Assembly: GCA_002869895.2 (NCBI GenBank)
Contig: NEWP02000006.1
Location: forward strand, 1-41,260
DNA from: Nitrospira sp. CG24E
GTDB lineage: Bacteria > Nitrospirota > Nitrospiria > Nitrospirales > Nitrospiraceae
Length of the DNA: 41,260 nucleotides
Reading direction: 5' to 3'
The notes beneath the pieces are model-generated. The model was not told the origin of the DNA. It worked only from the letters and a program-made list of their open reading frames with translations, and did not search any database. Shown here in pieces: positions 6,137 to 29,392 of the stretch (positions are counted from its first letter, which is position 1; each line of letters opens with the position of its first letter). The position numbers and the translations under genes are program-made.

Positions 6137-7516
6137 ATGTTGTATCGGAAATCTACTCTGCTCGTAGCGACAGGCATTCTGGTCATAATTGCCCTGTCAT
6201 CTCTGGCAATGCCCAACCAGGCCCAGGCGATCCCGGCCTTTGCGCGCAAGTACGAAGTAAATTGCACAGCCTGCCATACGGCCCCGCCGATCCTCAATAC
6301 CTATGGCCAGTGGTTCTTGGAAAACGGCTATCAGCTCCCCGGCACGGAAGACGGCGGAACCACCGGTAAGAAGAAGCTGGGTGACGTCACGCTCGACGAT
6401 GTTGGGAAATATCTGGCCTTCCGCCTGGTCGGCAACGCCGTCCGGAGCTGGAGCTTCACCCAACAGAATCCCGCCGGGGTCGATACCGGCGTCGCCCAGA
6501 ACAAGACGGAGCTCACCTTTCCGGAGAACTTCGTACTGTTCGCAGGCGGCACCGTCATGAAGAACGTCGGATTTATGGTCGAACTTGGCCATGACGTGGA
6601 GGGAGGCGGCGCGGCCGTAGAACGCGGCTTCGTCTCCTTCAATAATCTGGGCGCGCAGGACCTGGCCCATGTCCGGGTCGGCAAATTCGATCCGTCAGCC
6701 TTCTACTCGGTAGTGACCATTCGGCAACAGCTCAATGAGGTCGGGGAGAGTGCATCAAGCAGCTGCACCACCGCCTTTGCCCCCTGTTCCTTCAATCGTA
6801 TCGGGTTGGCGCCCAGTGCCTTTGCGACCAAGTTTTACGGTCTCTACGATCGCGGCGGCAGCCCCCTCTCCCCCTTCGCATCAAGCCTCTACAATTCCGG
6901 AGGAGAGCTCGGCCTTGATGTCCATGGCCGGCCCTTCGGCAAGGCCTGGTTGTATCAGGTGGGCGTAGTGAACGGGGCGAATGAACCGTTTGGCGATTCC
7001 AACAAGGGCAAAGACCTCTACGCCATGCTGCGCTACGACTATGGGCACTCGGACTATTTTGCGGCGAATATTTCAGGCTTTGTCTACCACGGTAACAGCA
7101 ACGCCAAGGTCCAGACGCAGGAGGATGTGAACTGGCATCGCTATGGGGTCTCCGCCCGCGCGACCTATCAGATGGTGGATCTCTATGCCGCCTATGCGGT
7201 GGACCGGATCAACCATGTCCCGAGCGGCGTGAGTGGCGCCTTCGATGCCACTGCCACCGGCCTCACAATCGGCGCCGATGCCTATGTGACCAACGAGACA
7301 CTCCTCTCACTTCGCTACGACAACTTGGATGCGGGGGGCGTCCTGGAGCAGCGGAAGTCCGCCACCTTCGTCGGCCTCCAGGCGAAGCAGTATCTCCGCA
7401 CCAACGTCGCGGTCTTTGTCCGTAACGATGTGAATGTGCGGAAGTCAGAGGGGGGCGAGACGGCGGCGCGCAATCTCCGGAACGCCTTCTTCGCAGGCAT
7501 CGATATTATTTTCTAA
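6137..7516 (+). CDS. Cyc2-like cytochrome-porin: single N-terminal haem c motif followed by a beta-barrel
   Basis: A protein of 459 residues. The chosen start is the ATG at 6137, preceded by AAGAAGG at 9 bases; a TTG at 6113 in the same frame would add eight residues but lacks a ribosome site. A signal peptide ends near residue 31 (NQAQA). It is followed immediately by IPAFARKYEVNCTACHTAPP with haem-binding C43-x2-C46-H47, then LNTYGQWFLENGYQLPG. The remaining 380 residues are rich in alternating hydrophobic and aromatic strands and end in GIDIIF, with a terminal Phe as in outer-membrane barrels. A fused haem and porin is the architecture of Cyc2 iron-oxidising cytochromes, including Cyt572 of Leptospirillum. 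Many relatives are uncharacterised, so iron oxidation is only a possibility. It precedes a dihaem cytochrome c by 11 bases, likely its periplasmic electron acceptor. Confidence 0.75.
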   Translation: MLYRKSTLLVATGILVIIALSSLAMPNQAQAIPAFARKYEVNCTACHTAPPILNTYGQWFLENGYQLPGTEDGGTTGKKKLGDVTLDDVGKYLAFRLVGNAVRSWSFTQQNPAGVDTGVAQNKTELTFPENFVLFAGGTVMKNVGFMVELGHDVEGGGAAVERGFVSFNNLGAQDLAHVRVGKFDPSAFYSVVTIRQQLNEVGESASSSCTTAFAPCSFNRIGLAPSAFATKFYGLYDRGGSPLSPFASSLYNSGGELGLDVHGRPFGKAWLYQVGVVNGANEPFGDSNKGKDLYAMLRYDYGHSDYFAANISGFVYHGNSNAKVQTQEDVNWHRYGVSARATYQMVDLYAAYAVDRINHVPSGVSGAFDATATGLTIGADAYVTNETLLSLRYDNLDAGGVLEQRKSATFVGLQAKQYLRTNVAVFVRNDVNVRKSEGGETAARNLRNAFFAGIDIIF

Positions 7517-14613: not shown

Positions 14614-14802
14614 TAGGAGCCTGTCCGAGTAATATCATTCGACTGCGGCAAACGATCTGCTGGCATCTGCGTCGTTCTCGGCCCCAAAAAATCCTCAACG
14701 TATTCTCTCTGGAATACGCTTCCGGTTTTTTCGAACCTGCGGCCTTGCATCTACCAGCTGCTCCTTCGCCTCGCAACGAAGAATTATTCGGACAGGCTCC
14801 TA
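14614..14802. mobile_element. 189-bp MITE-like element with 20-bp terminal inverted repeats
   Basis: TAGGAGCCTGTCCGAGTAAT at 14614-14633 is matched at 14783-14802 by its inverse with one mismatch. The interior has no credible gene. The left end is 17 bases upstream of the flavoprotein ATG, and the right end supplies the TAG stop codon (14800-14802) of ccmI. The size and ends suit a non-autonomous transposon; no target duplication is obvious. Confidence 0.75.
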
Positions 14803-16077
14803 GGGTCTTTCACGATTGATCACCAGAGTGATTTTCTCTGTCCCTGGTTTAACCGACTGACTTATCCCTTCTAGATCTCCACTTTGCGGCATGGCCTGGC
14901 CGGATTTCGACAGACGGGCCACAATCACTACTGTCCCTGCAGCAGAAAGTTTTCTGGAGGGCATGGGGCTGGTTGAGTCGTCGAGCCGGAAGGTAAAGGG
15001 GAGATCCTGTCTCGTGGCCCGCACGATCGACAGCGGCATAGGCGGGCCATTCACCTCGCGCGCGAACACAAATAATGTGTCCATTGAAGCGCCTTTCGCT
15101 GCGAGACTCGGCACCAGGCTCACTGTCCCGCTGATTGCGGCAGCCTGACCGTTCGACATCGTCGAAGATGTCGTCTCACTGACCGATTTGATCATTGCCG
15201 GCTTTCCGCTTGCTAACCCTTTAGCCTCGTTGATACCGGAGAGCAGCTCTTGCCTGATCTCCCCCTCTGTATCGCTTGGAAGGTTCGCGCCGGCCTTCTC
15301 CCAATACTGAACCGCCTGCCTAAACTCTCTGCGGTCGAATGCCAGGGTCCCAGCCAACATCAGCGCTTTGACATGGTTTGGGTCAATCTTGAGCGCCTGC
15401 TGAATCAACAAATCAGGCTTCCCTGCCAACGTGCGACCATGCAACACACCAAGGGCATCGGCATAGTCGACGAGCAACTGGGGATCGTCGGGAAGCAACT
15501 TCATGGCCTTCTCGTAGATCGCCACAGCGTCGCTATGTTGGCCCATTTCCGCATAAGAACGAGCAAGGAGCGCCCATCCCACTCCGTCGTCGGGATTCTG
15601 TTCGAGTTTTTTCTTGAGACGCTCCGACAGGGCCTCAAGCCCTTCAGCAGTCCGGTGGTCGGAGTCCGACCCGCCTTGCGCCATCGGCGAGGAGGGGACG
15701 GGATGGGTGATCGCCAGTTGATTGCCCAACTGCCAATAGAGTAGCCCGCTGACGGTCGGAATGATGACCGCCAACGCCACAACGACCACTCGGCTGTTCA
15801 CCGGCCATGCTAGTGCCGGGACTGTGGCCTCGGCAGGCCCCGTTTCTTCAAGCAGGCGTCGTTCGAGTTCCCGTTTCGATTGTTGATACTGCTCATCGGT
15901 CAACAGGGCGCGCTTATGGTCTTGTTCCAATTCGGAAAATTGCTGGCGATAGACCGAAATCGTTTTTTCTCCTTCATCATTTTTCGATGACGATTGACGC
16001 TTGAGAAGGGGCCAGAGGAGCAGGCCGAGCGCGAGGAGGGTCATGGCCCAGGCAATAAACCAAAATATGAGGGTCAT
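14800..16077 (-). CDS. ccmI: Cytochrome c biogenesis protein CcmI (CycH-like)
   Basis: A 425-residue protein with two membrane helices (about 4-23 and 98-118) around a Glu/Arg-rich coiled segment containing RQQFSELEQDHKRALLTDEQYQQSKRELERRLLEE, the hallmark CcmI N-terminal region. A periplasmic TPR domain follows at about 145-285 (VGWALLARSYAEMGQHSDAVAIYEKAMKLLPDD). A C-terminal beta-rich domain is present at about 310-425, as in long CcmI proteins. CcmI chaperones apocytochrome c to the haem ligation complex. AAGGAGG lies 9 bases before the ATG. Only a fragment of ccmC lies upstream, so the rest of the operon must be elsewhere or lost. The final codons and stop abut the inverted-repeat element at 14614-14802, so the original C-terminus may have been altered. 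Confidence 0.88.
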   Translation of the reverse strand: MTLIFWFIAWAMTLLALGLLLWPLLKRQSSSKNDEGEKTISVYRQQFSELEQDHKRALLTDEQYQQSKRELERRLLEETGPAEATVPALAWPVNSRVVVVALAVIIPTVSGLLYWQLGNQLAITHPVPSSPMAQGGSDSDHRTAEGLEALSERLKKKLEQNPDDGVGWALLARSYAEMGQHSDAVAIYEKAMKLLPDDPQLLVDYADALGVLHGRTLAGKPDLLIQQALKIDPNHVKALMLAGTLAFDRREFRQAVQYWEKAGANLPSDTEGEIRQELLSGINEAKGLASGKPAMIKSVSETTSSTMSNGQAAAISGTVSLVPSLAAKGASMDTLFVFAREVNGPPMPLSIVRATRQDLPFTFRLDDSTSPMPSRKLSAAGTVVIVARLSKSGQAMPQSGDLEGISQSVKPGTEKITLVINRERP

Positions 16078-16165: not shown

Positions 16166-16429
16166 CTAGCGTGGATTGACGACCAGCGTCTTGCTGGGTT
16201 GGGCAACATACAAGAACATCGACATCCAAGCCGCCGGCACATGCACAAAGATAATGCGGTAGGAGTCGCCTTGCTGAAAGTCGGTCGGCGCCACGAAGAA
16301 TCCAATGTACAGGCCAGTGACGATCAACCCGATCGCGGCCACGGAAAACCAGGGGATCATCTTCCCCGCCAGCGGATGGAAGGCCTGTGGCGATGAATAC
16401 TTAAACCAATTCATGCGAGCAAAACTCAC
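16166..16429 (-). pseudogene. ccmC: Truncated ccmC (haem exporter subunit), N-terminal fragment
   Basis: The first residues read MNWFKYSSPQAFHPLAGKM, followed by a membrane helix (IPWFSVAAIGLIVTGLYIGFF) and the conserved YRIIFVHVPAAWMSMFLYV of CcmC. Homology then stops abruptly: twelve unrelated residues and a TAG at 16166 follow. CcmC is normally about 220-250 residues with six helices and the WWD haem loop, all missing here. The start may be GTG 16429 or ATG 16414, and neither has a strong ribosome site. Together with the adjacent ccmI this implies an internal deletion of the ccm operon from within ccmC to just before ccmI. The fragment cannot handle haem. Confidence 0.85.
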
Positions 16430-16596: not shown

Positions 16597-18906
16597 CTAG
16601 GAGAAATCCCACCGAAGACCAAAGAAAAAGAATTCTCTCGTCGTGGTGTCCTTTTGCGTCGCGCTATTCTGCACCGTTTTCTCCAGCCCACCTGTCGCCT
16701 CGAAGGTCCAATTGTCGAAGAAGCGATAGTCGATGCGAACCGTCGGAGTCGCCCGGTACAGCTCTACGCCAAAACTATCCTTTTGGTGATAGAGCAGGAC
16801 GAACGTATCAAACCGCAATTGTTGTCCAAAGCGAGCCAGCGAATTGAGCGTGAGCGATTGTCCTCGGTACGCCGGACTCGAAATATAGCTGGCATTCGCC
16901 ACAAAGGTCGTATTTTCAAACGGAAAGTTCGCTCCGATCGCTTGAGCCGTGTAGGTCCATATATTTCCAGTCCCAGGCAACGCCTGCAGGGAACAGGCTG
17001 CATCTGTTGTCGCGTTTGGATCGAGAAAGAGGATACTGGTGCCAGGCCTGATGAGCAGACAGTTCGTAGCCCCGGTACCAGAAATACGATTGAGGCGGAC
17101 GTCCCCGCCGAGCTGCCAGTCCTTGCTCACCGCATGGAGTACCCCGGCGAGAAACAGGTCGCTGGTTGCCGTCACAGCCTTGGCCTGCTCGCGCAAGAGA
17201 CTTTCATTCGCTGTGTTGATGGTCTCGAAGGTGGCATTGGGGGTCCCGAAGAGCGCATTCGTGGTTTGCAAGTAAGGCGTTCTGCGGTGGTCTGCCAAGA
17301 AGGTGTAGGTTGTTCCCTCTGTCACCCAACTCCCACTGAGCATCGCCACATTGAGAACGTTGAATGACACGTCGTAGTCGATCAGGCTGAATGCATTCTT
17401 CCCATTGGCCCCATACCGTAATTCTGTCCCCACTGCCCGGCGATCCACCACGCCATTGACCATCTGGTTGATCACGTACAGATTGCCGCTCCAGGCCTGT
17501 CCGATCGGACCGATGTCCACATTCACTCCGTAAAAGTAGCGTTTCAAGTCGGCTCGAAAGTTCCGGGGATCGTCTGGCACGTAACCGGAACTCAAGCTGA
17601 ATTGCCGGGGCTGACCCGCGAGAAGATTGATATTCAAAAACTGCGGGACGGCAGTGTAGCGCACCCAGAGGCCATCGAATCGAAAATCCAGGATGCCTCC
17701 TTGGTTCCCCGGTTGGCGACCGACCCGGACGAGATAGGAGTCCTGACTCGAATGCTCATAGTAGAGGGCTCTGAGGCGGCTGATATTTCGCCGAAGGTCG
17801 GAGGTGGCGAGCAGGTTATAGGCCTGTGTGCCACGGACGACGAGCTTATTGTCGTACTCGTCTTTTCTGTACCTTCCCGTGACATCGAACGACGACAGCA
17901 GCAACGACTGGTCGTGGTTGTTGAAACTCGTCGTGCTATTCGTCAGTTTGTCTGTAATTTTCGACTGGGAGTATCCGCCATAATAGTACTCGTAGACACT
18001 CCCATAGACCTGCATTTGGTCGATCTTCTTTCTCGCCTTCTCTCCGGTCTTGCTTTGAGCTATCTGAGCCATCGCTTCAGCCAAAGCGGCCAATCGCTTC
18101 TGCACCCTCACCGCTCCCTCACCGTCAGGATAGGCTTTCAAGTAATGCTCATATTCGGCCTTGGCTTTGGAGGTTTCTCCATTTCTCTCACGCGCCACCC
18201 CGACCAGCTCCTGAGCCTCTTGCGACTGTTTGCTCGGTGGAAGGTTGAGGAGCGAATTGAAAATTTGCACGGCCTTCTCGTGATCTCCTGCCGCCAACGC
18301 TGTACGCCCTAGCTCCATGAGATCGCCCGCATACTTTTCCATACTCATGCCAGGGCGGAATGGAGGGACCTCGAACAGTTCCTTCTTCCCCGTGATCGCG
18401 GGAGGTGTCGCAGGCGAGGGGACCTTCACCTCGGGAGCCAGCGACGGCGGAGCCTCTGCCTGATCCAGCTTGACCGAAATCACAATTCGGCTGCCGCTTC
18501 TGATGTCCCGTTGGCTCACGCGAAACCGCACCGGCTTGGCGAATCGGATCGAAAGGCCATTTGTCGCTTGGTCGGGAAACGTGACCTGAAATTTTGGGAT
18601 CAAGTCGCTGGGCGGCGACGCCACCAATTCCCGCTGAAATCCACGAGATCGGTCCAGGTCTGGAAAGTCGAGAAATAGACGAATGAGATCGCCCTGCTGG
18701 GATGGGGTATGACGAAGATAGAGCGCCCGTGTATTGAACACAATATGGATCTCCGCCGCTGTCGAGGTCTCGACGATTTCGACGCGATCGAGTACCTGAG
18801 CCGAGGCTAAATCCGGCGCGGCGAGGCCGCCAAGTGTGACGACCCCCATCAGAAAGAGGCTCCCGACCGCAACACGCAACTGGTTTATATAGCTGAGAGC
18901 CAACAC
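16597..18906 (-). CDS. Outer-membrane protein: AMIN-like domain, TPR segment and C-terminal beta-barrel
   Basis: About 769 residues. The start is uncertain: GTG 18906 has AGGAG only 3 bases away, while the next codon, TTG 18903, has 6-base spacing. A signal peptide ends near residue 36 (DLASA). Residues about 38-145 form a beta domain resembling AMIN-type peptidoglycan or secretin-associated modules (RVEIVETSTAAEIHIVFN). A Pro-rich linker and a TPR stretch (about 190-280, AGDHEKAVQIFNSLL, AKAEYEHYLKAYPDG) come next. From about 295 to the end it is an Asn/Tyr-rich chain of amphipathic strands ending in GLRWDFS, like a large beta-barrel. It lies 82 bases downstream of the 18-haem cytochrome gene on the same strand. 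By analogy with porin-cytochrome conduits the barrel could house or export a cytochrome; that role is inferred. Confidence 0.78.
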   Translation of the reverse strand: MLALSYINQLRVAVGSLFLMGVVTLGGLAAPDLASAQVLDRVEIVETSTAAEIHIVFNTRALYLRHTPSQQGDLIRLFLDFPDLDRSRGFQRELVASPPSDLIPKFQVTFPDQATNGLSIRFAKPVRFRVSQRDIRSGSRIVISVKLDQAEAPPSLAPEVKVPSPATPPAITGKKELFEVPPFRPGMSMEKYAGDLMELGRTALAAGDHEKAVQIFNSLLNLPPSKQSQEAQELVGVARERNGETSKAKAEYEHYLKAYPDGEGAVRVQKRLAALAEAMAQIAQSKTGEKARKKIDQMQVYGSVYEYYYGGYSQSKITDKLTNSTTSFNNHDQSLLLSSFDVTGRYRKDEYDNKLVVRGTQAYNLLATSDLRRNISRLRALYYEHSSQDSYLVRVGRQPGNQGGILDFRFDGLWVRYTAVPQFLNINLLAGQPRQFSLSSGYVPDDPRNFRADLKRYFYGVNVDIGPIGQAWSGNLYVINQMVNGVVDRRAVGTELRYGANGKNAFSLIDYDVSFNVLNVAMLSGSWVTEGTTYTFLADHRRTPYLQTTNALFGTPNATFETINTANESLLREQAKAVTATSDLFLAGVLHAVSKDWQLGGDVRLNRISGTGATNCLLIRPGTSILFLDPNATTDAACSLQALPGTGNIWTYTAQAIGANFPFENTTFVANASYISSPAYRGQSLTLNSLARFGQQLRFDTFVLLYHQKDSFGVELYRATPTVRIDYRFFDNWTFEATGGLEKTVQNSATQKDTTTREFFFFGLRWDFS

Positions 18907-18988
18907 ACACTCCTATACGCTTTGGATACATATACGAAGAAGGGTGCTCGTCGTCTATCACGACAAGCACCCTTGGCTGAGCTAGAAA

Positions 18989-20524
18989 TTACCAACTACC
19001 GGTAGGTCTATGTTCCCCGGTTCGGTTCTTCAAAATCGTCGTGAAGGTGGAGTTGGTATAGACGTGGCAACTGCCGGAACAGTCTTTCAGCTCCAAGACG
19101 TTGTAATAAATCACCGGGGAATCCACCTTCTTATGCGGACCCTGTTTGAAGTCGCCCGCATGGCAACCGGCGCAATCAGGCTTATAACCGGCAAACTGCC
19201 AGGCAATGACTTCATTGTTGTTCTTATGGCAGTCATTGCACGTTACGGTGGATCGATGCGCCTTATAGAAAGCGCTCCGATGCGTATAGGTCGTGACCGG
19301 CGTCCAGGCTACCCCGGCCCGGTGACAGGCATCGCACGACTGCGTGGTGACAAAGTGGCCCGTCGATTTACCTGTCGCGGTCGTTCCATTGTGGCAGGTA
19401 GCACAGCTGCCCGGGGTCACCCCCGTATGGCTGAACGTCGCCGGAATCCAGGCCGTCGTTCGGTGACAGCTGTCGCAAGAAGCCGTGGTCGGCACGTGAT
19501 TCGTTGTTTTTCCCCGCGCGGTGCTGCCGTTATGACAGGTCGCGCAAGTACCCGGCACCACCCCCGTATGACTGAACGTCGCCGGAACCCAGGCCGTCGT
19601 TCGGTGACAGCTGTCGCAAGAAGCCGTGGTCGGCACGTGATTCGTTGTTTTTCGCGCTTGCGTCCCGTTATGACAGGTCGCGCAAGTACCCGGCACCACC
19701 CCCGTATGGCTGAACGTCGCCGGAACCCAAGCCGTCGTTCGGTGGCAGCTGTCGCACGCTTGCGTCGTTGGCACATGATTCGTCGCCTTGCCTCGCGCTT
19801 GCGTCCCGTTATGACAGGTCGCGCAAGTACCCGGCACCACCCCCGTATGATTGTAGCCTGAGGTGACAAGTAACCAATTCGCCGTCCCCACTCGGTGGCA
19901 ACTGTCGCAGGAAGCAGCTGTCGCCATGTGTCCAGCCGGCTTCCCACGGGCTTGAATCCCATTATGGCAGGTCACGCAGGCACCGGACGCGACACCTAGA
20001 TGTTTGAAGGCAGCCCCAGTCCAACCCACGGTCCTGTGGCAACTGTCGCAGGCCATGGTCGTCGGAATATGAGCAGCCGGCTTGCCTGCCGCGACAGCTT
20101 GGTTATGGCATTTGGAACAGGTTCCAGGAGCCACGCCATTATGCGTAAAGAAGGCGGGCGTCCAATTTGTCGTCCTGTGGCAACTGTTGCAATTGACGGT
20201 GGTCGGTATGTGATTGGTCGGTTTGAACGTGGACACGACTCGTCCGCCGGGCGAATGGCATTGCATACATTGGGTGGGGGTTCCCCGAAAGATACCTTGT
20301 AGATGGCAGCGTTGACAGTCGACCTGCGCATGGCCTCCGGTGAGCGGGAAGCCGGTGCTGCTGTGGTCGATTTCAATCTCCGTGCGGCTCCCCCCCTGGG
20401 CAGACGAGGTATCAGGCATCAGCAGCATCGTACTGCATGCCACCAGAATCCCGGCAACAATCGCCCAGGCAAAGAACCGATGTCTTGGCCAGCTGGCCTT
20501 TCGAGTCATAGTTGTATCAGTCAC
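18989..20524 (-). CDS. Exported 18-haem cytochrome c with tandem dihaem repeats
   Basis: The start is GTG 20524 with GAGAGG at 7 bases (ATG 20509 is an alternative). An N-terminal membrane segment serves as signal (HRFFAWAIVAGILVACSTMLL). I count 17 CxxCH motifs and one CxxxCH (CSGSCH) near the C-terminus, 18 potential haems. The core is a repeat of 46-47 residues carrying two haems, CDSCHRTTAW then PGTCATCHNG. Each unit has two further conserved His, in FSHTGV and NHVPTT, enough for bis-His ligation of both haems. Several units are nearly identical in DNA. Neighbours are a beta-barrel protein downstream and a divergent cytochrome b/24-haem operon. The long haem chain suggests a periplasm-spanning or extracellular electron conductor. 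Attachment as a lipoprotein is not supported, since no clear lipobox is seen. Confidence 0.92.
   Translation of the reverse strand: MTDTTMTRKASWPRHRFFAWAIVAGILVACSTMLLMPDTSSAQGGSRTEIEIDHSSTGFPLTGGHAQVDCQRCHLQGIFRGTPTQCMQCHSPGGRVVSTFKPTNHIPTTVNCNSCHRTTNWTPAFFTHNGVAPGTCSKCHNQAVAAGKPAAHIPTTMACDSCHRTVGWTGAAFKHLGVASGACVTCHNGIQARGKPAGHMATAASCDSCHRVGTANWLLVTSGYNHTGVVPGTCATCHNGTQARGKATNHVPTTQACDSCHRTTAWVPATFSHTGVVPGTCATCHNGTQARKTTNHVPTTASCDSCHRTTAWVPATFSHTGVVPGTCATCHNGSTARGKTTNHVPTTASCDSCHRTTAWIPATFSHTGVTPGSCATCHNGTTATGKSTGHFVTTQSCDACHRAGVAWTPVTTYTHRSAFYKAHRSTVTCNDCHKNNNEVIAWQFAGYKPDCAGCHAGDFKQGPHKKVDSPVIYYNVLELKDCSGSCHVYTNSTFTTILKNRTGEHRPTGSW
19417..19860 (-). repeat. Tandem DNA repeats within the 18-haem gene
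   Basis: Units of 138-141 bp recur with near identity; for example the same CGCGCAAGTACCCGGCACCA starts at 19541, 19679 and 19820. One unit lacks a Gly codon, accounting for 138 instead of 141 bp. Such identity implies recent duplication or gene conversion, so haem number may vary among strains. Confidence 0.8.
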
Positions 20525-20609
20525 GGTGAAACCTCTCTCCGCTGTGCCACTCTATAAACAATTGGGATTATCATCTTATATAAAATGCGCGTCCCTAACC
20601 AGAAAATCA

Positions 20610-20734
20610 TGGGAATGCAATCCCAAATACTGGGGCAAAATGGAGCAAGAGACATACCCTTTACGATTAGAAATCTTAAGCTTCTGATTTCTATAGGGGA
20701 CGGAGATTCCGCATGGGTAGATCTACCCATGCGG
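20610..20734. promoter_or_regulatory. Palindrome-rich control region between the divergent cytochrome operons
   Basis: Three dyads lie in the 395-bp gap between the 18-haem gene (left) and the cytochrome b gene (right). TGGGAATGCAATCCCA at 20610-20625 is symmetric at 14 of 16 positions. TAGAAATC at 20668-20675 is inverted at 20686-20693. A perfect 26-bp palindrome, arms CCGCATGGGTAGA/TCTACCCATGCGG, occupies 20709-20734. The AT-rich stretch 20553-20590 is a likely promoter for the leftward gene. The long palindrome could be a repressor site or a hairpin in the rightward leader. No gene is seen between 20525 and 20919. Confidence 0.6.
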
Positions 20735-20919
20735 CGCAGAGCCCATGCTGGACAGGATGCAGGCCACCACCTACACTCTCTACAGAGCGACAGATCATAA
20801 ATGTCCGAGACCCCGCAAGGATTGTGCACCGAAACACAGGCGTGGGAGTTGCTTTAGGCGATCAGGCGTCTTCGACGCGAAGAAGCAAACATCTCTAAAC
20901 AATCATAGGATGCACAACC

Positions 20920-21846
20920 ATGGCTATCGCCGAACCTCTCGCTCAAGTCCGGAGACGAACGACCGAGACATCTCGCCCGGCGAACGAACTCGGTCCACAA
21001 GCGGATGAAGACACCACATCCGATTCTCCCTCTCTGCCGGGACGGCTGTTGGTCTTCACGCTTGTGGGCCTAGCGATGTGGGTGGCTTACAATGTGGCAA
21101 CCGGCAAGTATTACACTCCGCGATCGAACTTCGGATTTTACCTGGGAGTCGCAGGCTCCGTGATGCTGCTCGCGATGCTGGCCTATCCACTGCGCAAGCA
21201 TGCGCGCTTCATGCAACGTTGGGGCGCGCTGAAACACTGGTTTCGAATCCACATGATCATGGGCATCGTCGGACCCACACTCATCCTGTTTCACTCCACC
21301 TTTCATTTGAGGTCTCTAAACGCCACGATCGCCCTTGTCAGCATGCTGAGGGTGGTCATCAGCGGCATCATCGGTCGCTTCGTCTACACCAGAATTCACC
21401 ATGGCCTCTACGGCCGTCGCGCCACGCTGAAGGAGATTCAGGAGAAATTTGCGGGCGATTCGCAGGATGCCCAATCCCGACTGCACTTTGCGCCTCGTGT
21501 CGAGCAATGGCTCGAATCGTTCGTGCGGGACTCGACGCAACTCGACCGGTCCTTCACTTCGCACCTCTTTAGCCCCCTGACTCTCGGCCTCAGAAGACAT
21601 ATCTTGGCCTTTCGCTGCGCGAGGGAGCTGCGAAGAATTCTGAAGACCGAACGGCGCCCGGAGTTCCGCGAGGGAGCATCTGAAGCCATTCAGCTGGCCT
21701 CTTCCTATTTGAGGGAAAGCGAGCGCGTCGCCCAGTTCAGTACCTATGAACGCCTCTTCTCCTGGTGGCACGTGCTCCACATTCCGCTCATCTATATCCT
21801 GGCCGCCTGTACGATTTTTCACATCGTGGCCGCGTACATGTACTGA
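20920..21846 (+). CDS. Five-helix membrane protein, probable dihaem cytochrome b
   Basis: A 308-residue protein with about 40 polar residues at the N-terminus and five predicted membrane helices near 43-61, 72-90, 107-128, 136-157 and 282-305, with a basic soluble loop of about 120 residues before the last. Two H-x13-H pairs stand out, H111/H125 in helix 3 and H287/H301 in helix 5. This is the arrangement by which two b haems are bound between helices in cytochrome b and ferric-reductase-like proteins. Extra His residues (H106, H129, H160, H161, H284) lie nearby. The gene heads an operon with the 24-haem cytochrome 10 bases downstream, so it may pass quinol electrons to that protein. I do not recognise a named family with certainty. 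Confidence 0.72.
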   Translation: MAIAEPLAQVRRRTTETSRPANELGPQADEDTTSDSPSLPGRLLVFTLVGLAMWVAYNVATGKYYTPRSNFGFYLGVAGSVMLLAMLAYPLRKHARFMQRWGALKHWFRIHMIMGIVGPTLILFHSTFHLRSLNATIALVSMLRVVISGIIGRFVYTRIHHGLYGRRATLKEIQEKFAGDSQDAQSRLHFAPRVEQWLESFVRDSTQLDRSFTSHLFSPLTLGLRRHILAFRCARELRRILKTERRPEFREGASEAIQLASSYLRESERVAQFSTYERLFSWWHVLHIPLIYILAACTIFHIVAAYMY

Positions 21847-21856
21847 GGTCTACATC

Positions 21857-23647
21857 GTGTTGGCCTCACCTTACCACCTGCTCATGATTCTCCTCGGCGC
21901 GGTCATGCTCACTGGCGCACCAGCCCTGGCAGACAATGTCGAAACCGCCTTGATGCCAGGCCAGGTGATCGAGGGTCATGCCAAATGGGAGGAAGACTGC
22001 ACCAAGTGCCACAAGCGGTTCGACAAGGCGGCGCAGAATACGCTCTGCCAGGACTGCCACAAGGATATTCGCAAGGACGTTGAACAAAGATTGGGATCGC
22101 ACGGGCGAGTGAAGGAGCAGCGCGAATGCAAGGACTGCCACACAGACCACCGAGGCAGGGCGGAGAATATCGCACCGATCACGGAACAGACATTCAATCA
22201 CGAACGGACCGACTTCCCACTCAAGGGCGCCCATGCCAACGCCAAGAAAGTCGAGTGCAAGGCCTGTCATGCGCCCAAGATCAAATATCGCGATACTCCG
22301 TCAGATTGTTACGCCTGCCACAAGAAAGACGATAAGCACAAAGGAAAGGTCGGCAGCGCCTGCTCAGACTGCCACACGGATACAAATTGGAAAGAGGTCC
22401 GGTTCGATCACGACAAGACCCGCTACAAGCTTCGGAACAAACATGCGGAGGTCCCGTGCAAGGACTGCCATGGAAACGATCGTTATAAGGAGACCCCCAT
22501 GGACTGTTACTCCTGCCATAAAAAAGACGACAAGCATAAGGGGCAGGAAGGGACAAAGTGCGAAGAATGCCACGACGACCGATCATGGAAGAAGACGCCC
22601 TTCGATCATAACAAGTCTCGTTTCCCATTGGTGGGGAAACATGCCAAGGTCGAGTGCAAGAACTGTCACCTAACTCCTGCTTTTAAAGACGCGCCGCTGG
22701 ATTGTTATTCCTGTCACAAGAAAGACGACAAACACAAAGGGACATACGGAGAGAAGTGCGAAACCTGCCATGCGGAGAGCGATTGGAAGACCATCACGTT
22801 CGATCATGACTTGCACTCCAAATACCCGCTCCGTGGGCGGCATGTCGCGACCAAGTGCGAGTCCTGCCATAAGGGGCACTTGTATCAAGATAAGACTCCG
22901 TCCGACTGCAACGCCTGCCATAAGAAGGACGACAAGCATAAGGGGCGATTTACCGAGCAGTGCGCAAGCTGTCATACCGAACGGAGCTGGGAACTCCTGC
23001 TCTTCGAGCATGATCGTGATACCGCGTTTCAGCTGAAGGGCTATCACCGGCAGACCAAATGCGACGGGTGTCACAAAGGCACACTCTACAAGGATAAGAC
23101 ACCGACCGGTTGCTATGCCTGCCATCAGAAGGACGACATTCATCGATCCAACTTCGGGACGAAATGCGAGAAGTGTCACAGCGAGCAGCAGTGGAAAACC
23201 ATCGCCTTCAATCATGATCGAGACACCAAATTCTCCCTCCTCGGCAAGCATCGTACAACGACCTGCGAGAGTTGCCATACGGGACGGCTATATCAGGACA
23301 AGACGCCTACGGACTGCTATGCCTGCCACAAGAAAGACGATGTGCACCGGCGCAGGTTGGGCACAGAATGCCAGGACTGCCATAGTATTCGCGACTGGAA
23401 GCTCTGGGACTTCGATCACGATACACGAACCAAATTCAAGCTCGATGGCGGGCATAAAGGCCTCGAGTGTTATGCCTGCCATACTGCGCGGATGGACAAG
23501 AAGGTCACATCATCGTCCTCTTGTGTCAGTTGTCACAAAAAGGATGACAAGCACGGGGGAAGTTACGGCCCACAATGTGATCGGTGTCATGACACAACGC
23601 TCTGGAAGACGATCAAACCAGGCACCAACATCTTTCGCGGCCGGTAG
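21857..23647 (+). CDS. Exported 24-haem cytochrome c with tandem trihaem repeats
   Basis: The chosen start is GTG 21857, with GAGG at 8 bases and a proper signal peptide (HLLMILLGAVMLTGAPALA); the frame is open further upstream, inside the cytochrome b gene. The product has about 596 residues and I count 24 CxxCH motifs. From the second motif on, seven repeats of about 60 residues each hold three haems. A typical unit reads CYACHKKDDKHKG, then CxxCH, a W-K segment, FDH, LxGxH and CxxCH. Each unit therefore carries three further conserved His (KHKG, FDH, GxH), as needed for bis-His coordination of every haem. The high Lys content suggests a basic surface. It lies 10 bases after the cytochrome b gene. 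A role as a periplasmic or extracellular haem wire is inferred. Confidence 0.92.
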   Translation: MLASPYHLLMILLGAVMLTGAPALADNVETALMPGQVIEGHAKWEEDCTKCHKRFDKAAQNTLCQDCHKDIRKDVEQRLGSHGRVKEQRECKDCHTDHRGRAENIAPITEQTFNHERTDFPLKGAHANAKKVECKACHAPKIKYRDTPSDCYACHKKDDKHKGKVGSACSDCHTDTNWKEVRFDHDKTRYKLRNKHAEVPCKDCHGNDRYKETPMDCYSCHKKDDKHKGQEGTKCEECHDDRSWKKTPFDHNKSRFPLVGKHAKVECKNCHLTPAFKDAPLDCYSCHKKDDKHKGTYGEKCETCHAESDWKTITFDHDLHSKYPLRGRHVATKCESCHKGHLYQDKTPSDCNACHKKDDKHKGRFTEQCASCHTERSWELLLFEHDRDTAFQLKGYHRQTKCDGCHKGTLYKDKTPTGCYACHQKDDIHRSNFGTKCEKCHSEQQWKTIAFNHDRDTKFSLLGKHRTTTCESCHTGRLYQDKTPTDCYACHKKDDVHRRRLGTECQDCHSIRDWKLWDFDHDTRTKFKLDGGHKGLECYACHTARMDKKVTSSSSCVSCHKKDDKHGGSYGPQCDRCHDTTLWKTIKPGTNIFRGR

Positions 23648-23687
23648 CCTCAAACCGGCACTGTGAGATCTCCAAAGGAAACGTACT

Positions 23688-25277
23688 ATGAAATATCGAC
23701 GCGACATTTCGTCCTTTCTTAAATTCTTCGCGCTTGCACTGGTGCTCTTTATCGGCTATCAGGCCTGGTTGAAACCGGCCTATTTGACTCCGAACTCGGC
23801 ATCCCGACAGTCCTCAGATTCTCCCTCTCTTCAACAGACCTCCAGCCTCCCTTTACCGGGAACGCAAGAATATCCATCCTGGGACGTTCCGCAAACGAGG
23901 CTGGTCGACCTCGGACAAGCGCCGACCGACGCGCTCGCGGTCATTCGCGATGAAGTGGATAGGGGGAATTACAGGGAGGCAGAGCGCCGTTTAACGGCCC
24001 TCCCGCGCAAAGAGCTGGAGAAAGCCCAGACCAAACGGTACATTGCAGCGCTCTGGAACAATCTCGGTGTGCAACAGGAAAAGTTCGGCGGGAGCGCACT
24101 CTCCGTCAAAGCCTTTAAGAAAGCCGTCGTGGCCGATCCTGCCAATCCTGTTGCCTCCATGAACCTGACGCAGGCCTATTGGGAACTTCGTGACCCGGCG
24201 ATGACGCCCGAGTTCCTCAACCGGGTAATTCGTCTGAATCCCACCGATCCGTTCCCACACCTTGCCCTTGCTGAGCTACTCTTAGAGAAAGGCGACAAGA
24301 CCTCGGCCATAACCCACCTCAATCTCGCAGATACACAAACTCAATATGATCCCCATCTCGGATCCTACCGCAATAAACTGGTCGCAAAGACAAGCGGGGA
24401 AAAGTCCGCACAGCCTCAAACAGTGGCAGTAGCACTCACCCCTTCAACCACATCGTCCGCTATCGTCTCCCGACCGGCCCCGAATCCTCGCCAAGACTTC
24501 GCGCCTCTTCCCTCAATACCATCCACTGATCCACCACCCGCCTCCACGACCGAGGAGGAATCGTCGCAGAAACTGCTTGCTCCTCGCGGCACTGCCCATT
24601 TCATCGTTCAGTTCGACGGGCCTGACGATCAGGCGACATGGGTGCGCATTCGCGCCATGCTCGAATATGCCTATGAGGAGATTCCTCCGAAGTTCGGGCG
24701 TCTGCCCGCCAACCCCATCCAGGTTGTCCTCCACACGGGACAGAAGTTTTCAGGACCGGTGGGATCCCCCCATTGGGCCGATACCCTATTCGATCACAGA
24801 TCTGGTTCAATCCATCTCCCCACTCAAGGCGCGCTCGACGATCTCGCATTATTCAGCCGCATTCTCCGTCATCAGTTCGTCCATGCGCTCTTTCATGAAC
24901 AGGCCAAACGGGACGGTCCAACCCTTCCAACATGGCTCATGGAGGGTCTGGTCATTCATATGACGGAAGACGCCTGGCCGGACATCGAAGAGTCTCGACA
25001 AAAGAACCCTCCACTCATGCCGCTGCCTTCCCTGCACAAGTCGTGGGCGCAAATCCCTTCAGCGTCGCTACCGACCGCCTACCTCACGGCAAGCACTGCC
25101 ACTCAGCACCTCATCGACCGGTATAGCATGTACACGATTCGCCAACTGATGAATGTGTTGATGGCCGGGCAGCCTCTTGAGACGGCAATGCAACAGAAGC
25201 TATCCCTGTCGTACGAACAGTTTCAGCGCCAGTGGGCGCAAAGCCACAAGCTGCATGTACATGAGAGCGGCTCATGA
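23688..25277 (+). CDS. TPR protein with degenerate peptidase-MA-like domain
   Basis: A 529-residue protein with an N-terminal membrane anchor (residues 9-27), a Ser/Pro-rich linker, TPR repeats at about 75-240 (NLGVQQEKFGGSALSVKAFKKAVVADPAN) and a second Pro/Thr-rich linker. The C-terminal domain at about 300-525 resembles peptidase MA family metallopeptidases. The zinc-binding helix reads H395-QFV-H399, so the catalytic Glu of HExxH is Gln (CAG at 24873-24875). The third-ligand helix LPTWLMEGL with E419 is kept. Zinc may still bind, but classical hydrolysis is unlikely. It follows the 24-haem gene by 40 bases with an AAAGGAA site, so it could help assemble or anchor the cytochrome. That is inference from position. 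Confidence 0.78.
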   Translation: MKYRRDISSFLKFFALALVLFIGYQAWLKPAYLTPNSASRQSSDSPSLQQTSSLPLPGTQEYPSWDVPQTRLVDLGQAPTDALAVIRDEVDRGNYREAERRLTALPRKELEKAQTKRYIAALWNNLGVQQEKFGGSALSVKAFKKAVVADPANPVASMNLTQAYWELRDPAMTPEFLNRVIRLNPTDPFPHLALAELLLEKGDKTSAITHLNLADTQTQYDPHLGSYRNKLVAKTSGEKSAQPQTVAVALTPSTTSSAIVSRPAPNPRQDFAPLPSIPSTDPPPASTTEEESSQKLLAPRGTAHFIVQFDGPDDQATWVRIRAMLEYAYEEIPPKFGRLPANPIQVVLHTGQKFSGPVGSPHWADTLFDHRSGSIHLPTQGALDDLALFSRILRHQFVHALFHEQAKRDGPTLPTWLMEGLVIHMTEDAWPDIEESRQKNPPLMPLPSLHKSWAQIPSASLPTAYLTASTATQHLIDRYSMYTIRQLMNVLMAGQPLETAMQQKLSLSYEQFQRQWAQSHKLHVHESGS

Positions 25278-26729: not shown

Positions 26730-27905
26730 CTATATCGTCGGAAAGGACGCAGCAGTAACAAGTGGCTCCGGTTGCATAGGGTCTGATGTCTCGGTGAGAC
26801 CCGCGCTACGCCGGTGGAAATCGGCAAGCACCTGCTCCAGCTCGGCAACCGACGAGACACGGAACAGATCGGCTCGAAGTGAGGCGGCATGAGGGAATCC
26901 TTTGCAGTACCAGCCTAAATGTTTGCGCATACGCCGAAACTGGCCCTGCCCACAGGCCGCTTCGAACCGTCTGGCATGGTCAAGCAGCACCTCGAAACGA
27001 ACATCTAGTGGCGGCATCCAGGGTTCGAACCCCTCTTCAGACTGATAATGCTGCAGTGCGAGTCGCGCCTCCTCCTTCTGCCGAAAGAACCAGGGGGCGC
27101 CGAGCGCTGCCCGTCCGACTAATACCCCATCGACTCCGGTGTCCCGCACTCGACGAACGACATCGTGATAACTGTGCAGGTCCCCATTGCCGAAAAGCAA
27201 CGTCCCGCTTCCCCGCGCGATCTCCGCCGCCCGAGCAATAGCATTCCAATCCGCTTCTCCCCGATACATTTGCTGCAAGGTACGACCATGGAGAGAAATA
27301 ACCGACGGCCGCTCGGTGAGGAGATGTTCGATCCAGCGATCGACGACCACCACGTCGTAGCCGAGGCGTGTCTTCACGGACAGAGGGATCGGCTGTCGGA
27401 CGAGCGGGCGAGCGCCCTGCCGCTGCCCATTCATTTTGGAGATCGCTGCGACCCTGCCAGGCTTGAGCCCCGCTCCCTCAAGGGTCTGACCGGCCGCCCA
27501 GTCGGCAATCCCCCGTCGAGTTGCCTGCATAATGGCCTGTGCGACATCCGGCGTTCGGATCAACCCTGCTCCCGATCCAGACGAGGCCACACTTCGCGAA
27601 GGACAGCCCATGTTGATATCCAGTCCGTCGAATCCCAACTCACAGACTGCATGGGCAGCCTGATAGAAGAGGTCCGGCTCTTTTCCATAGAGCTGCGCGA
27701 CGATCGGTCGTTCAGCCTCATGATAGATGAGGGAGTCCAACAAAAACTCCGGTCCCCGGCAGACATCATGCACATGCGTGAACTCCGTGAAGGAGACATC
27801 CGGCTTCCCATGCATCGCGACCGTATGGCGAAATGTCGCATCTGTGACTCCATCCATCGGCGCCATCCCGATGATCGGTTTGGCGAGTGCCTGCCAGAAA
27901 CTCAT
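26730..27905 (-). CDS. dus: tRNA-dihydrouridine synthase
   Basis: A 391-residue FMN-dependent enzyme that reduces uridines in the D loop of tRNA. The TIM-barrel start reads IIGMAPMDGVTDATFRHT. The catalytic Cys is C101 in DINMGCPSRSV; substrate and FMN residues lie in SVKTRLGYD, SLHGRT and LFGNGD. The C-terminal helical tRNA-binding domain has RRMRKHLGWYCKGFP. A segment of about 30 residues (residues 137-170, TLEGAGLKPGRVAAISKMNGQRQGARPL by region) is longer than in typical Dus. The start overlaps the stop of the upstream DUF692-type gene by four bases (ATGA), implying coupled translation. Confidence 0.93.
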   Translation of the reverse strand: MSFWQALAKPIIGMAPMDGVTDATFRHTVAMHGKPDVSFTEFTHVHDVCRGPEFLLDSLIYHEAERPIVAQLYGKEPDLFYQAAHAVCELGFDGLDINMGCPSRSVASSGSGAGLIRTPDVAQAIMQATRRGIADWAAGQTLEGAGLKPGRVAAISKMNGQRQGARPLVRQPIPLSVKTRLGYDVVVVDRWIEHLLTERPSVISLHGRTLQQMYRGEADWNAIARAAEIARGSGTLLFGNGDLHSYHDVVRRVRDTGVDGVLVGRAALGAPWFFRQKEEARLALQHYQSEEGFEPWMPPLDVRFEVLLDHARRFEAACGQGQFRRMRKHLGWYCKGFPHAASLRADLFRVSSVAELEQVLADFHRRSAGLTETSDPMQPEPLVTAASFPTI

Positions 27906-29392
27906 CGGGCTTGCTCCATCTCCATGACCGGCTCTCCCACTTCATTCGCCTGCGCATAGGCCAGACGCAACAGATCGCCCTCCAATTGTACACAGCCCCG
28001 CACATCCGGCGCGCGCTCCGTCGCAAATTCAAGAAACCGTTCGATCTTGAGGAGGAAGAAATCGTATGAATGAGTGATCGGTCGTGGCGACCGAAACCAG
28101 AAGGCCACAAACTCTGTCAGGCAAATACCACGCTCCGCCAAGATCCGGCAGGTCTCCGGAAACATCTCAGCAAGATCTCCTCCCCAATGAAGAATCTCGT
28201 GCGGCAAATAAGACGTGCGGTACCGTGTTAACCCAGCCGCCTCTGCGGCCGCCTCCTGCCACTCCAGTCCTGTCATAGGGACCTGTCCTGAGATGATTTG
28301 CGCGTAGCGCGCATAGTCGACGCACAATTGCTGCCGATCGGACTGGCGCAGCGAAACATGAATTGAGGCAGGGCGAAGCGTCAGCCCCTTCGACTGTTCT
28401 GCCGTAGTTTCTCTCGCCATCGCTTGTTGAACACGAAGGGTAAAACGCCGAACTGCCTCTGCATACTCCTCCACAATCGTCTCAATCGATTTGGTATCCA
28501 CTTCAAGCGCAACCGCCCGGAGGCTGATGAGGTTCGAGTGGGCCAGAACCTGTTCGAGCATGGTAAAGAGGATCGAGGGAATCGGAGCTGCGTGGGCATC
28601 GATCCATTCAGGAAGCCCTTCTTCCCCCTTCGACTCACCGGCCGATTCATGACAGGCCAGACCCGCCACGTGGATTTCTACGACACGCTCCAGGGGAAAT
28701 CCGTCGAGAAATTCATGAACGAATCGTTCGAGAGATATACGCCGGCGCAGGGCAGTATAGCGGTACACCGTCCAGAGATGCCCGATGTCCAGCACAAGAC
28801 CGCAGGGCGCCGTGGCCGTGACAAGCCGAAAAAAATCGGGAATCGGTATCGTGCCGGCAGAAAAATATGTGAGCGGCGGCATCTCCAAGAGGAAAAGTGG
28901 CGCAGTCCCGTCTGCCCGAACAGCCTGTCGATCCATCGCCTGCTGAACCGCAGCGATATTGTCGGCCACGACTTGGGCGCTTAGCTGCGTGTAGAGTGGA
29001 GGGACATAGGTGCCGAACGAATAGCCCGCCATCTGCTTCATGGCACATTCATGGTTCAGCCAGAGACTCTGCAGGCTGTTCAGATGCATGACCATCTCAT
29101 CGACATCCTGCTGAAAAAATGGAGCTGCCTGCACATCCGGCTGAGTAATCCACAGACCTTCCCCATGGTAGGCCAGCGGCATATCCGGCAATGCATGTCG
29201 AACGGTTGTCAATGCGGACGTCGTCGCCTTAAAGACTTCGAGATAGCCAGGCTGGAGCCCTCGCTCCCTAAGCCTGTTGACCAGCTCGAACAGATCGGGA
29301 CTGTAGACGTCGACTGACAGCCCCATCCCCAGGGCAGGAATTTTCCTGAGGCGGCGCCGAAAGTCCTGATGAACAAAATCCGGTTCAACCAT
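27902..29392 (-). CDS. DUF692/MNIO-family multinuclear iron enzyme fused to an unknown C-terminal domain
   Basis: The first 315 of 496 residues have the TIM-barrel pattern of DUF692, the multinuclear non-haem iron oxidative enzymes that modify peptides (MbnB, TglH). Visible motifs: GLSVDVY (24-30), YLEVF (50-54), YHGEGLW with H76, NHE with H114/E115, LLEMPP with E170, LDIGH with D202/H205, EIHVAG with E239/H241 and DAHAAP with D265/H267. These are the expected metal-ligand positions. The last 170 residues (with YLPHEILHWGGDLAEMFPETCRILAERGI) are not a domain I recognise. No small Cys-rich precursor gene lies beside it. It begins an operon with dus and maf, overlapping dus by four bases, so a role connected with RNA or nucleotide metabolism is possible. 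The ATG has only a weak ribosome site. Confidence 0.78.
   Translation of the reverse strand: MVEPDFVHQDFRRRLRKIPALGMGLSVDVYSPDLFELVNRLRERGLQPGYLEVFKATTSALTTVRHALPDMPLAYHGEGLWITQPDVQAAPFFQQDVDEMVMHLNSLQSLWLNHECAMKQMAGYSFGTYVPPLYTQLSAQVVADNIAAVQQAMDRQAVRADGTAPLFLLEMPPLTYFSAGTIPIPDFFRLVTATAPCGLVLDIGHLWTVYRYTALRRRISLERFVHEFLDGFPLERVVEIHVAGLACHESAGESKGEEGLPEWIDAHAAPIPSILFTMLEQVLAHSNLISLRAVALEVDTKSIETIVEEYAEAVRRFTLRVQQAMARETTAEQSKGLTLRPASIHVSLRQSDRQQLCVDYARYAQIISGQVPMTGLEWQEAAAEAAGLTRYRTSYLPHEILHWGGDLAEMFPETCRILAERGICLTEFVAFWFRSPRPITHSYDFFLLKIERFLEFATERAPDVRGCVQLEGDLLRLAYAQANEVGEPVMEMEQAR

Follow-up and report, generated by a model that had tools for sequence, protein, structure and literature searches.

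The whole stretch of DNA analysed here (the window) comprises 41,260 nucleotides of contig NEWP02000006.1 from Nitrospira sp. CG24E, and positions 16597–25277 carry a cluster of five genes, two of them for multihaem cytochromes (MHCs), that we compare with the PCC3 type of porin–cytochrome conduit. The cluster consists of two divergent units. The minus-strand unit encodes a porin (16597..18906, −) and the cytochrome cytA (18989..20524, −), and the plus-strand unit encodes an inner-membrane protein (IMP; 20920..21846, +), the cytochrome cytB (21857..23647, +) and a fifth protein with TPR and Peptidase_MA-like domains (23688..25277, +). The 395 bp between the units (20525..20919) form, going by gene layout, a putative divergent control region. 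An earlier note on this DNA, made from the sequence alone, had placed five open reading frames (ORFs) in this interval and described two exported cytochromes of 24 and 18 haems, adding up to 42 haem motifs, and two units leaving one control region. The ORF list and the motif counts (24 in cytB, 18 in cytA) agree with this, and the divergent arrangement around a single putative control region is also conserved in relatives, as judged from gene layout.

The porin is a 769-residue protein with a signal peptide, an AMIN-like beta domain (residues 39–146), TPR repeats (189–285, matched by Pfam) and a predicted barrel (296–768). Its AlphaFold2 model, with a mean pLDDT of 80, has 22 strands at residues 296–768 in addition to the AMIN-like beta domain and the TPR bundle, and its best structural matches in the PDB are outer-membrane barrels, 22-stranded and others, for example PirA and BtuB (Z 16–17); MtrB is not among the structural matches listed. 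The beta-barrel proposed in the earlier note is thus predicted, and a model with no barrel, which that note had named as counter-evidence, did not appear. CytA has 511 residues and is a predicted extracellular MHC with 17 CXXCH motifs and one CX3CH motif (CSGSCH), or 26 residues per haem, in repeats rich in Thr, Ser, Ala and Gly (T/S/A/G), which together make up 42% of the protein. Homologues of cytA adjoin the porin gene in relatives and also in Proteobacterial PCC3 loci, where cytA is the third gene.

The IMP (308 residues) is, on its motifs, a probable dihaem cytochrome b and quinone interface. It has five hydrophobic segments and the signature W107-x3-H111-x13-H125, S148-G149-x2-G152 and W283-x3-H287-x13-H301, with H111/H125 on segment 3 and H287/H301 on segment 5, as expected from the five-helix protein with two H-x13-H pairs seen earlier. 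CytB (596 residues) is a predicted periplasmic MHC that starts with GTG, 10 bases past the IMP stop codon. Its ORF was first listed as 21746–23647, but because close relatives start the gene at the position of GTG 21857, the resulting 101-base overlap with the IMP gene is judged to be a start-codon artefact. The protein is rich in Lys and Asp and carries 24 CXXCH motifs in 8 three-haem repeats of ~66 residues each. Mature cytB and cytA contain 26 and 19 non-motif His residues for 24 and 18 haems, respectively, and would therefore have enough His for bis-His ligation of each haem. Residue-shuffled versions of cytA and cytB hold on average 0.19 and 0.33 haem motifs, with a maximum of 3, and neither cytochrome drew more than weak matches from sequence searches of the PDB.

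The PCC3 type was described by He et al. in 2017 as a porin, a repeat-bearing, T/S/A/G-rich extracellular MHC, a periplasmic MHC with a median of 21 haems and an IMP of 300 residues, and the IMP residues listed for PCC3 and PCC4 are two WX3HX13H motifs and SGXXG (PMC5566968). So far, PCC3 has been described in iron-oxidising and other Proteobacteria, Sideroxydans, Gallionella and Leptothrix among them, and has been followed up since 2017 (PMC8788666, PMC10734462, PMC12016527, PMC12442390). In Gallionellaceae, the periplasmic MHC has 21, 24 or 27 haems and the extracellular MHC 10–35 (PMC10734462). The genes Slit_1446-1449 are arranged in the order IMP, periplasmic MHC, extracellular MHC, porin (PMC12016527), and the two cytochromes have 24 and 28 haems (PMC8788666). 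Each of these parts has a counterpart in the window. The outer-membrane barrel porin is homologous, the 24 haems of cytB lie within the ~21–27 of periplasmic PCC3 cytochromes and the 18 of cytA within the ~10–85 of their T/S/A/G-rich extracellular partners (both locations being predicted), and the ~300-residue IMP, with five hydrophobic segments, has every residue of the two WX3HX13H motifs and SGXXG. The four genes adjoin one another both in the window and in related genomes, though in two divergent units.

Over its full length, the porin shares 31–40% identity and the order of domains with Proteobacterial PCC3 porins (profile E 1e-92 to 1e-163), the IMP matches its Proteobacterial counterparts with profile E 1e-67 to 1e-103, and cytB is 46–56% identical to Proteobacterial PCC3 cytochromes. 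Multihaem repeats can give misleading similarity, and the different operon layout, the extra gene and a control palindrome of its own would suit a new type of conduit that is like PCC3 only through convergent, repeat-rich cytochromes. However, the porin and the IMP, neither of which contains haem motifs, are homologous over their full length, which makes convergence highly improbable and is the reason why membership of the locus in PCC3 is well supported by sequence. The suggestion in the earlier note of an undescribed conduit does not hold, as the locus belongs to a type published in 2017 (PMC5566968). Compared with PCC3 loci such as Slit_1446-1449 and Slit_0867-0870 of Sideroxydans lithotrophicus ES-1, the Nitrospira locus shares the four parts, the IMP motifs, homologous sequences and a low number of residues per haem (about 24–26). 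It differs in its Nitrospirota host, its TPR/peptidase-like fifth gene, its conserved palindromes and its link to ccm genes and a DUF6502 gene, and in being split into two divergent units rather than running IMP-cytB-cytA-porin in line; in the Proteobacterial loci examined, the IMP, a 24- or 27-haem cytB, cytA and the porin stand in one row. The Nitrospira branch is regarded as a distinct, monophyletic PCC3 variant.

We hypothesize, with a probability of about 0.8, that these genes encode a porin–cytochrome conduit of the PCC3 type, in a variant particular to Nitrospira. The IMP, with two b haems on H111/H125 and H287/H301, would exchange electrons with the quinone pool, cytB would ferry them across the periplasm along its chain of eight three-haem modules, and cytA would sit in or on the porin and reach into the medium. 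The porin barrel would house the haem chain where it crosses the outer membrane, with the AMIN-like/TPR part of the porin on the periplasmic side, and the fifth protein would most likely be an assembly or docking factor. The nitrifier could in this way swap electrons with an extracellular partner such as minerals, humics or other cells, and a repressor or activator binding TGGGA-N6-TCCCA, for which the DUF6502 protein is a candidate, may control the system. The earlier note had likewise read the parts as a trans-envelope conduit, and the parts, the predicted barrel and the synteny support this reading; trans-envelope electron transfer, and with it haem occupancy, localisation, complex formation, the quinone reaction, regulation and direction, are what we infer.

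Several points weigh against the conduit. Electron transfer by PCC3 has been described as untested (PMC12442390), and both PCC3 clusters of S. lithotrophicus are down on Fe(II)-citrate (PMC8788666). With 22 strands, the porin model has fewer than certain PCC3 porins, for which as many as 42 segments have been reported, and this bears on the room available for a haem chain. Also, the references used here are Sideroxydans/Gallionellaceae loci and other Proteobacterial loci from metagenome-assembled genomes (MAGs) with the PCC3 layout, and not the ES-1 or SP-6 proteins. A capacitor role has been suggested for PCC3 (PMC10734462), and a periplasmic and outer-membrane electron store or redox buffer with no outside exchange, the barrel serving cytochrome assembly or import, would suit the very high haem density of the locus and the 30-haem cytB paralogue that the same genome encodes without a porin or IMP. 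We consider such a store unlikely, given that the pair of porin and cytochrome stays together in essentially all carriers and that cytA, repeat-rich and of low complexity, is built like the extracellular cytochromes of PCC3. As to the direction of flow through a PCC3 conduit, we lean slightly, at about even odds, towards uptake from reduced extracellular donors, and give somewhat less than even odds to the release of electrons from quinol under oxygen shortage. That PCC3 hosts are mostly lithotrophs suggests uptake, and the fall of both clusters on Fe(II) in S. lithotrophicus speaks otherwise. Quinol oxidation followed by exit through the barrel, as envisaged in the earlier note, is allowed by the parts but is only one of these two options.

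The five-gene divergent layout, porin-cytA facing IMP-cytB-fifth gene, recurs across related Nitrospira loci (L033–L049) as far as contig ends reach, so that the conserved synteny in Nitrospirota sought by the earlier note was found. Relatives lacking the membrane partner everywhere, which that note had held to be damaging, did not appear (18 of the 20 porin-bearing genomes also carry the IMP). Across 121 genomes the porin, the IMP and the fifth gene co-occur, with Fisher p values of 3e-18 to 3e-20 that ignore the kinship of the genomes. The host assembly itself contains an AMO-family gene on contig C58 and a "Rifle_cladeB" MAG is among the nearest PCC3 relatives; the host is therefore a comammox Nitrospira, probably of clade B. 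With AMO present in the host, and with ccm genes adjoining PCC3 in relatives and AMO/HAO in comammox genomes (PMC6311188), the cytochromes could be thought to serve nitrification, carrying hydroxylamine or nitrite electrons rather than taking part in extracellular exchange. The distribution makes this very unlikely. Many Nitrospira that lack AMO carry PCC3, several that have AMO do not, and homologues come from genera whose names refer to the oxidation of iron, sulfur and methanol. A specific link between PCC3 and comammox was considered and set aside as weak within the genus (9/12 AMO genomes versus 8/20 without AMO, p 0.08). Because its distribution does not follow AMO, PCC3 is, on this comparative evidence, not part of ammonia oxidation.

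In a tree of IMP sequences, Nitrospira forms one clade (support 100/99) whose nearest neighbour is Methylotenera (89/95), and the other members are Proteobacteria. This pattern is consistent with one ancient transfer between the phyla and largely vertical inheritance since then, with the arbitrary root leaving the direction of such a transfer unfixed. A profile scan with cytB, run on one genome per species, yielded 269 relatives, and the 80 kept come from Nitrospira, Sideroxydans, Gallionella, Thiobacillus, Methylotenera, Rhizobacter and others. Relatives of cytB in related loci carry 21, 24 or 27 haems, as expected for a wire that changes length by modules. Second cytB-like cytochromes with 30–39 haems and no adjoining porin or IMP are found on contig C12 of the same genome (L142:3637-5967) and in other loci (L078, L079, L080, L099, L133, L136). 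Shorter IMP relatives of ~195 residues stand beside 5–7-haem cytochromes in other Nitrospirales (L050, L051, L052), where no adjoining PCC3 porin was found. PCC3 genes also occur in MAGs titled Bordetella parapertussis (L118, L125); the titles are probably wrong and these are environmental metagenome bins.

The fifth protein (529 residues) is membrane-anchored and predicted to be periplasmic, and 22 of 23 members of its family match the Peptidase_MA-like and TPR assignment. Each of the 19 genomes with an IMP has its gene at full length, as do two further genomes, in which the remainder of the cluster may be missing through fragmented assemblies. No match to it was found in any Proteobacterial PCC3 locus examined. 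The earlier note had called the peptidase domain dead-looking; this stands for the window, where HQFVH replaces HEXXH, but not for the many relatives with HEFVH. As HEFVH is found in these relatives and also in the own-genome paralogue, the catalytic Glu was lost in at least some lineages with the protein retained. A Foldseek search returned only TPR proteins among the matches listed and confirmed no peptidase fold. The paralogue with the intact HEFVH lies at L164:5887-7566 on contig C1, and similar paralogues are present in most Nitrospiraceae searched.

Within the divergent control region, the candidate operator TGGGAATGCAATCCCA at 20610..20625 is a palindrome, TGGGA-N6-TCCCA, that is conserved in Nitrospira loci. 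It lies between the units in 18 of 20 Nitrospira PCC3 loci, with one to three copies per locus and 38 exact sites in all against a shuffle mean of 0.015, although these loci are related and their sites hence not independent; none of 49 Proteobacterial PCC3 loci contains it. A promoter scan of the control region gave one weak sigma70-like match, not above shuffles. Exact sites number 7 in the host genome, against 1 for the reversed control; one lies in the PCC3 control region and two lie in the contig C12 locus (L142:1329-1344 and 7360-7375), of which one is directly before the DUF6502 gene. The same palindrome is found upstream of DUF6502 in three other genomes (G018, G014 and G036), and further positions are L170:3576, L171:5639 and L172:6284. 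TGGGA-N6-TCCCA is thus a candidate operator of a small regulon comprising PCC3 and the locus of DUF6502 and the 30-haem cytochrome. DUF6502 itself is a candidate regulator of the PCC3 island, judging from this linkage and from our reading of a helix-turn-helix-like stretch. Of the 22 genomes with PCC3 parts, 17 contain DUF6502, against 8 of the 99 genomes without such parts (p 9e-11), and searches of the PDB and NCBIfam with DUF6502 gave no significant match.

Beyond the porin, the window contains a ccmC fragment of 87 residues (16166..16429, −; partial match to Pfam PF01578) and an intact ccmI/cycH gene for an apocytochrome c chaperone (14800..16077, −; Pfam Ig_CycH and TPR_CcmH_CycH). In canonical Nitrospira (e.g. 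G036 and G018), ccm genes come after the porin; ccmA, B, C, E and F were checked with Pfam in one such locus (L045), and the position of ccmC in other relatives. Where the window has what is apparently a remnant of this operon, relatives lacking AMO have ccm genes, ccmC among them. The host genome holds a ccmF-containing cluster at another site, while ResB (System II) was searched for in the host and not found. Published comammox genomes have ccm genes beside AMO/HAO (PMC6311188). Beyond the ccm genes, canonical Nitrospira carry a DUF5666-type lipoprotein gene and the DUF6502 gene, the latter assigned by profile and the former by resemblance to a Pfam-checked copy. In the present genome the DUF6502-DUF5666 pair is on contig C12, followed by the 30-haem cytB paralogue.

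Among other known systems, PCC4 (He et al. 2017) resembles the Nitrospira locus in its IMP motif layout and in combining a porin with periplasmic MHCs. In contrast, PCC4 has three periplasmic MHCs and no extracellular one, whereas the window encodes two MHCs, one with the make-up of extracellular PCC3 cytochromes, and the IMPs of PCC4 and PCC3 reportedly share no significant overall similarity. By analogy, the Nitrospira system may work like MtrCAB, MtoAB and PioAB, as a barrel-sheathed cytochrome chain through the outer membrane, but it has 24 + 18 haems and its own cytochrome b-like IMP in place of CymA. No cytochrome at the locus has the 10 haems of a decahaem MtrA-type protein, and the best NCBIfam decahaem match of cytA scores 65 bits against a cut-off of 192. 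PCC_1 of 'Ca. Manganitrophus' is a porin–cytochrome complex of the same phylum; it is described as a porin with a dodecahaem cytochrome and as restricted to Manganitrophaceae (PMC9040806). Plasmid loci of Sphingobium, Variovorax and Methylophaga were not used as PCC3 references. The IMPs of Sphingobium and Variovorax are related (27–31% identity) but accompany 7–10-haem cytochromes and look like parts of other IMP–MHC systems, and the candidate barrel of Sphingobium shows no similarity. Plasmid pEMTOL02 of Emticicia oligotrophica (Bacteroidota; L055 9875-18571) encodes an IMP with the PCC3 signature, a 23-haem cytB relative (32% identity), a 40-haem MHC and a candidate barrel, the last giving no significant match; this cluster is possibly a distant PCC3-like system in a third phylum.

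The open-licence literature searched contains no report of PCC3 or extracellular electron transfer of this kind in Nitrospirota or comammox bacteria, though one may exist elsewhere; within that literature, PCC3 in these hosts, the split operon, the fifth gene and the control palindrome look unreported. The locus takes PCC3 into a second phylum and brings a conserved fifth component together with a specific hypothesis on regulation, so that expression studies in comammox enrichments could now probe both the function and the control of PCC3. These nitrifiers are common in drinking-water filters, soils and aquifers; provided that the conduit works, they could link their metabolism to minerals, humics or other cells, and the view of how they survive without oxygen or a nitrogen substrate would change. 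More tentatively, and at odds of roughly one in three, many Nitrospira, including clade-B-like comammox members, may possess an extracellular-electron island made up of PCC3, its own assembly factor, the ccm operon (relocated in comammox) and a DUF6502 protein that controls both the island and a 30–39-haem cytochrome via TGGGA-N6-TCCCA. In that case, complete nitrifiers could draw electrons from outside the cell or release them there, and DUF6502 would represent a novel family of transcription factors. Downstream of the cluster, at 27902–29392, lies a gene for a protein of the MbnB/TglH/ChrH family, which acts in the modification of precursors of ribosomally synthesized and post-translationally modified peptides, and which is kept together with dus and maf in close relatives.

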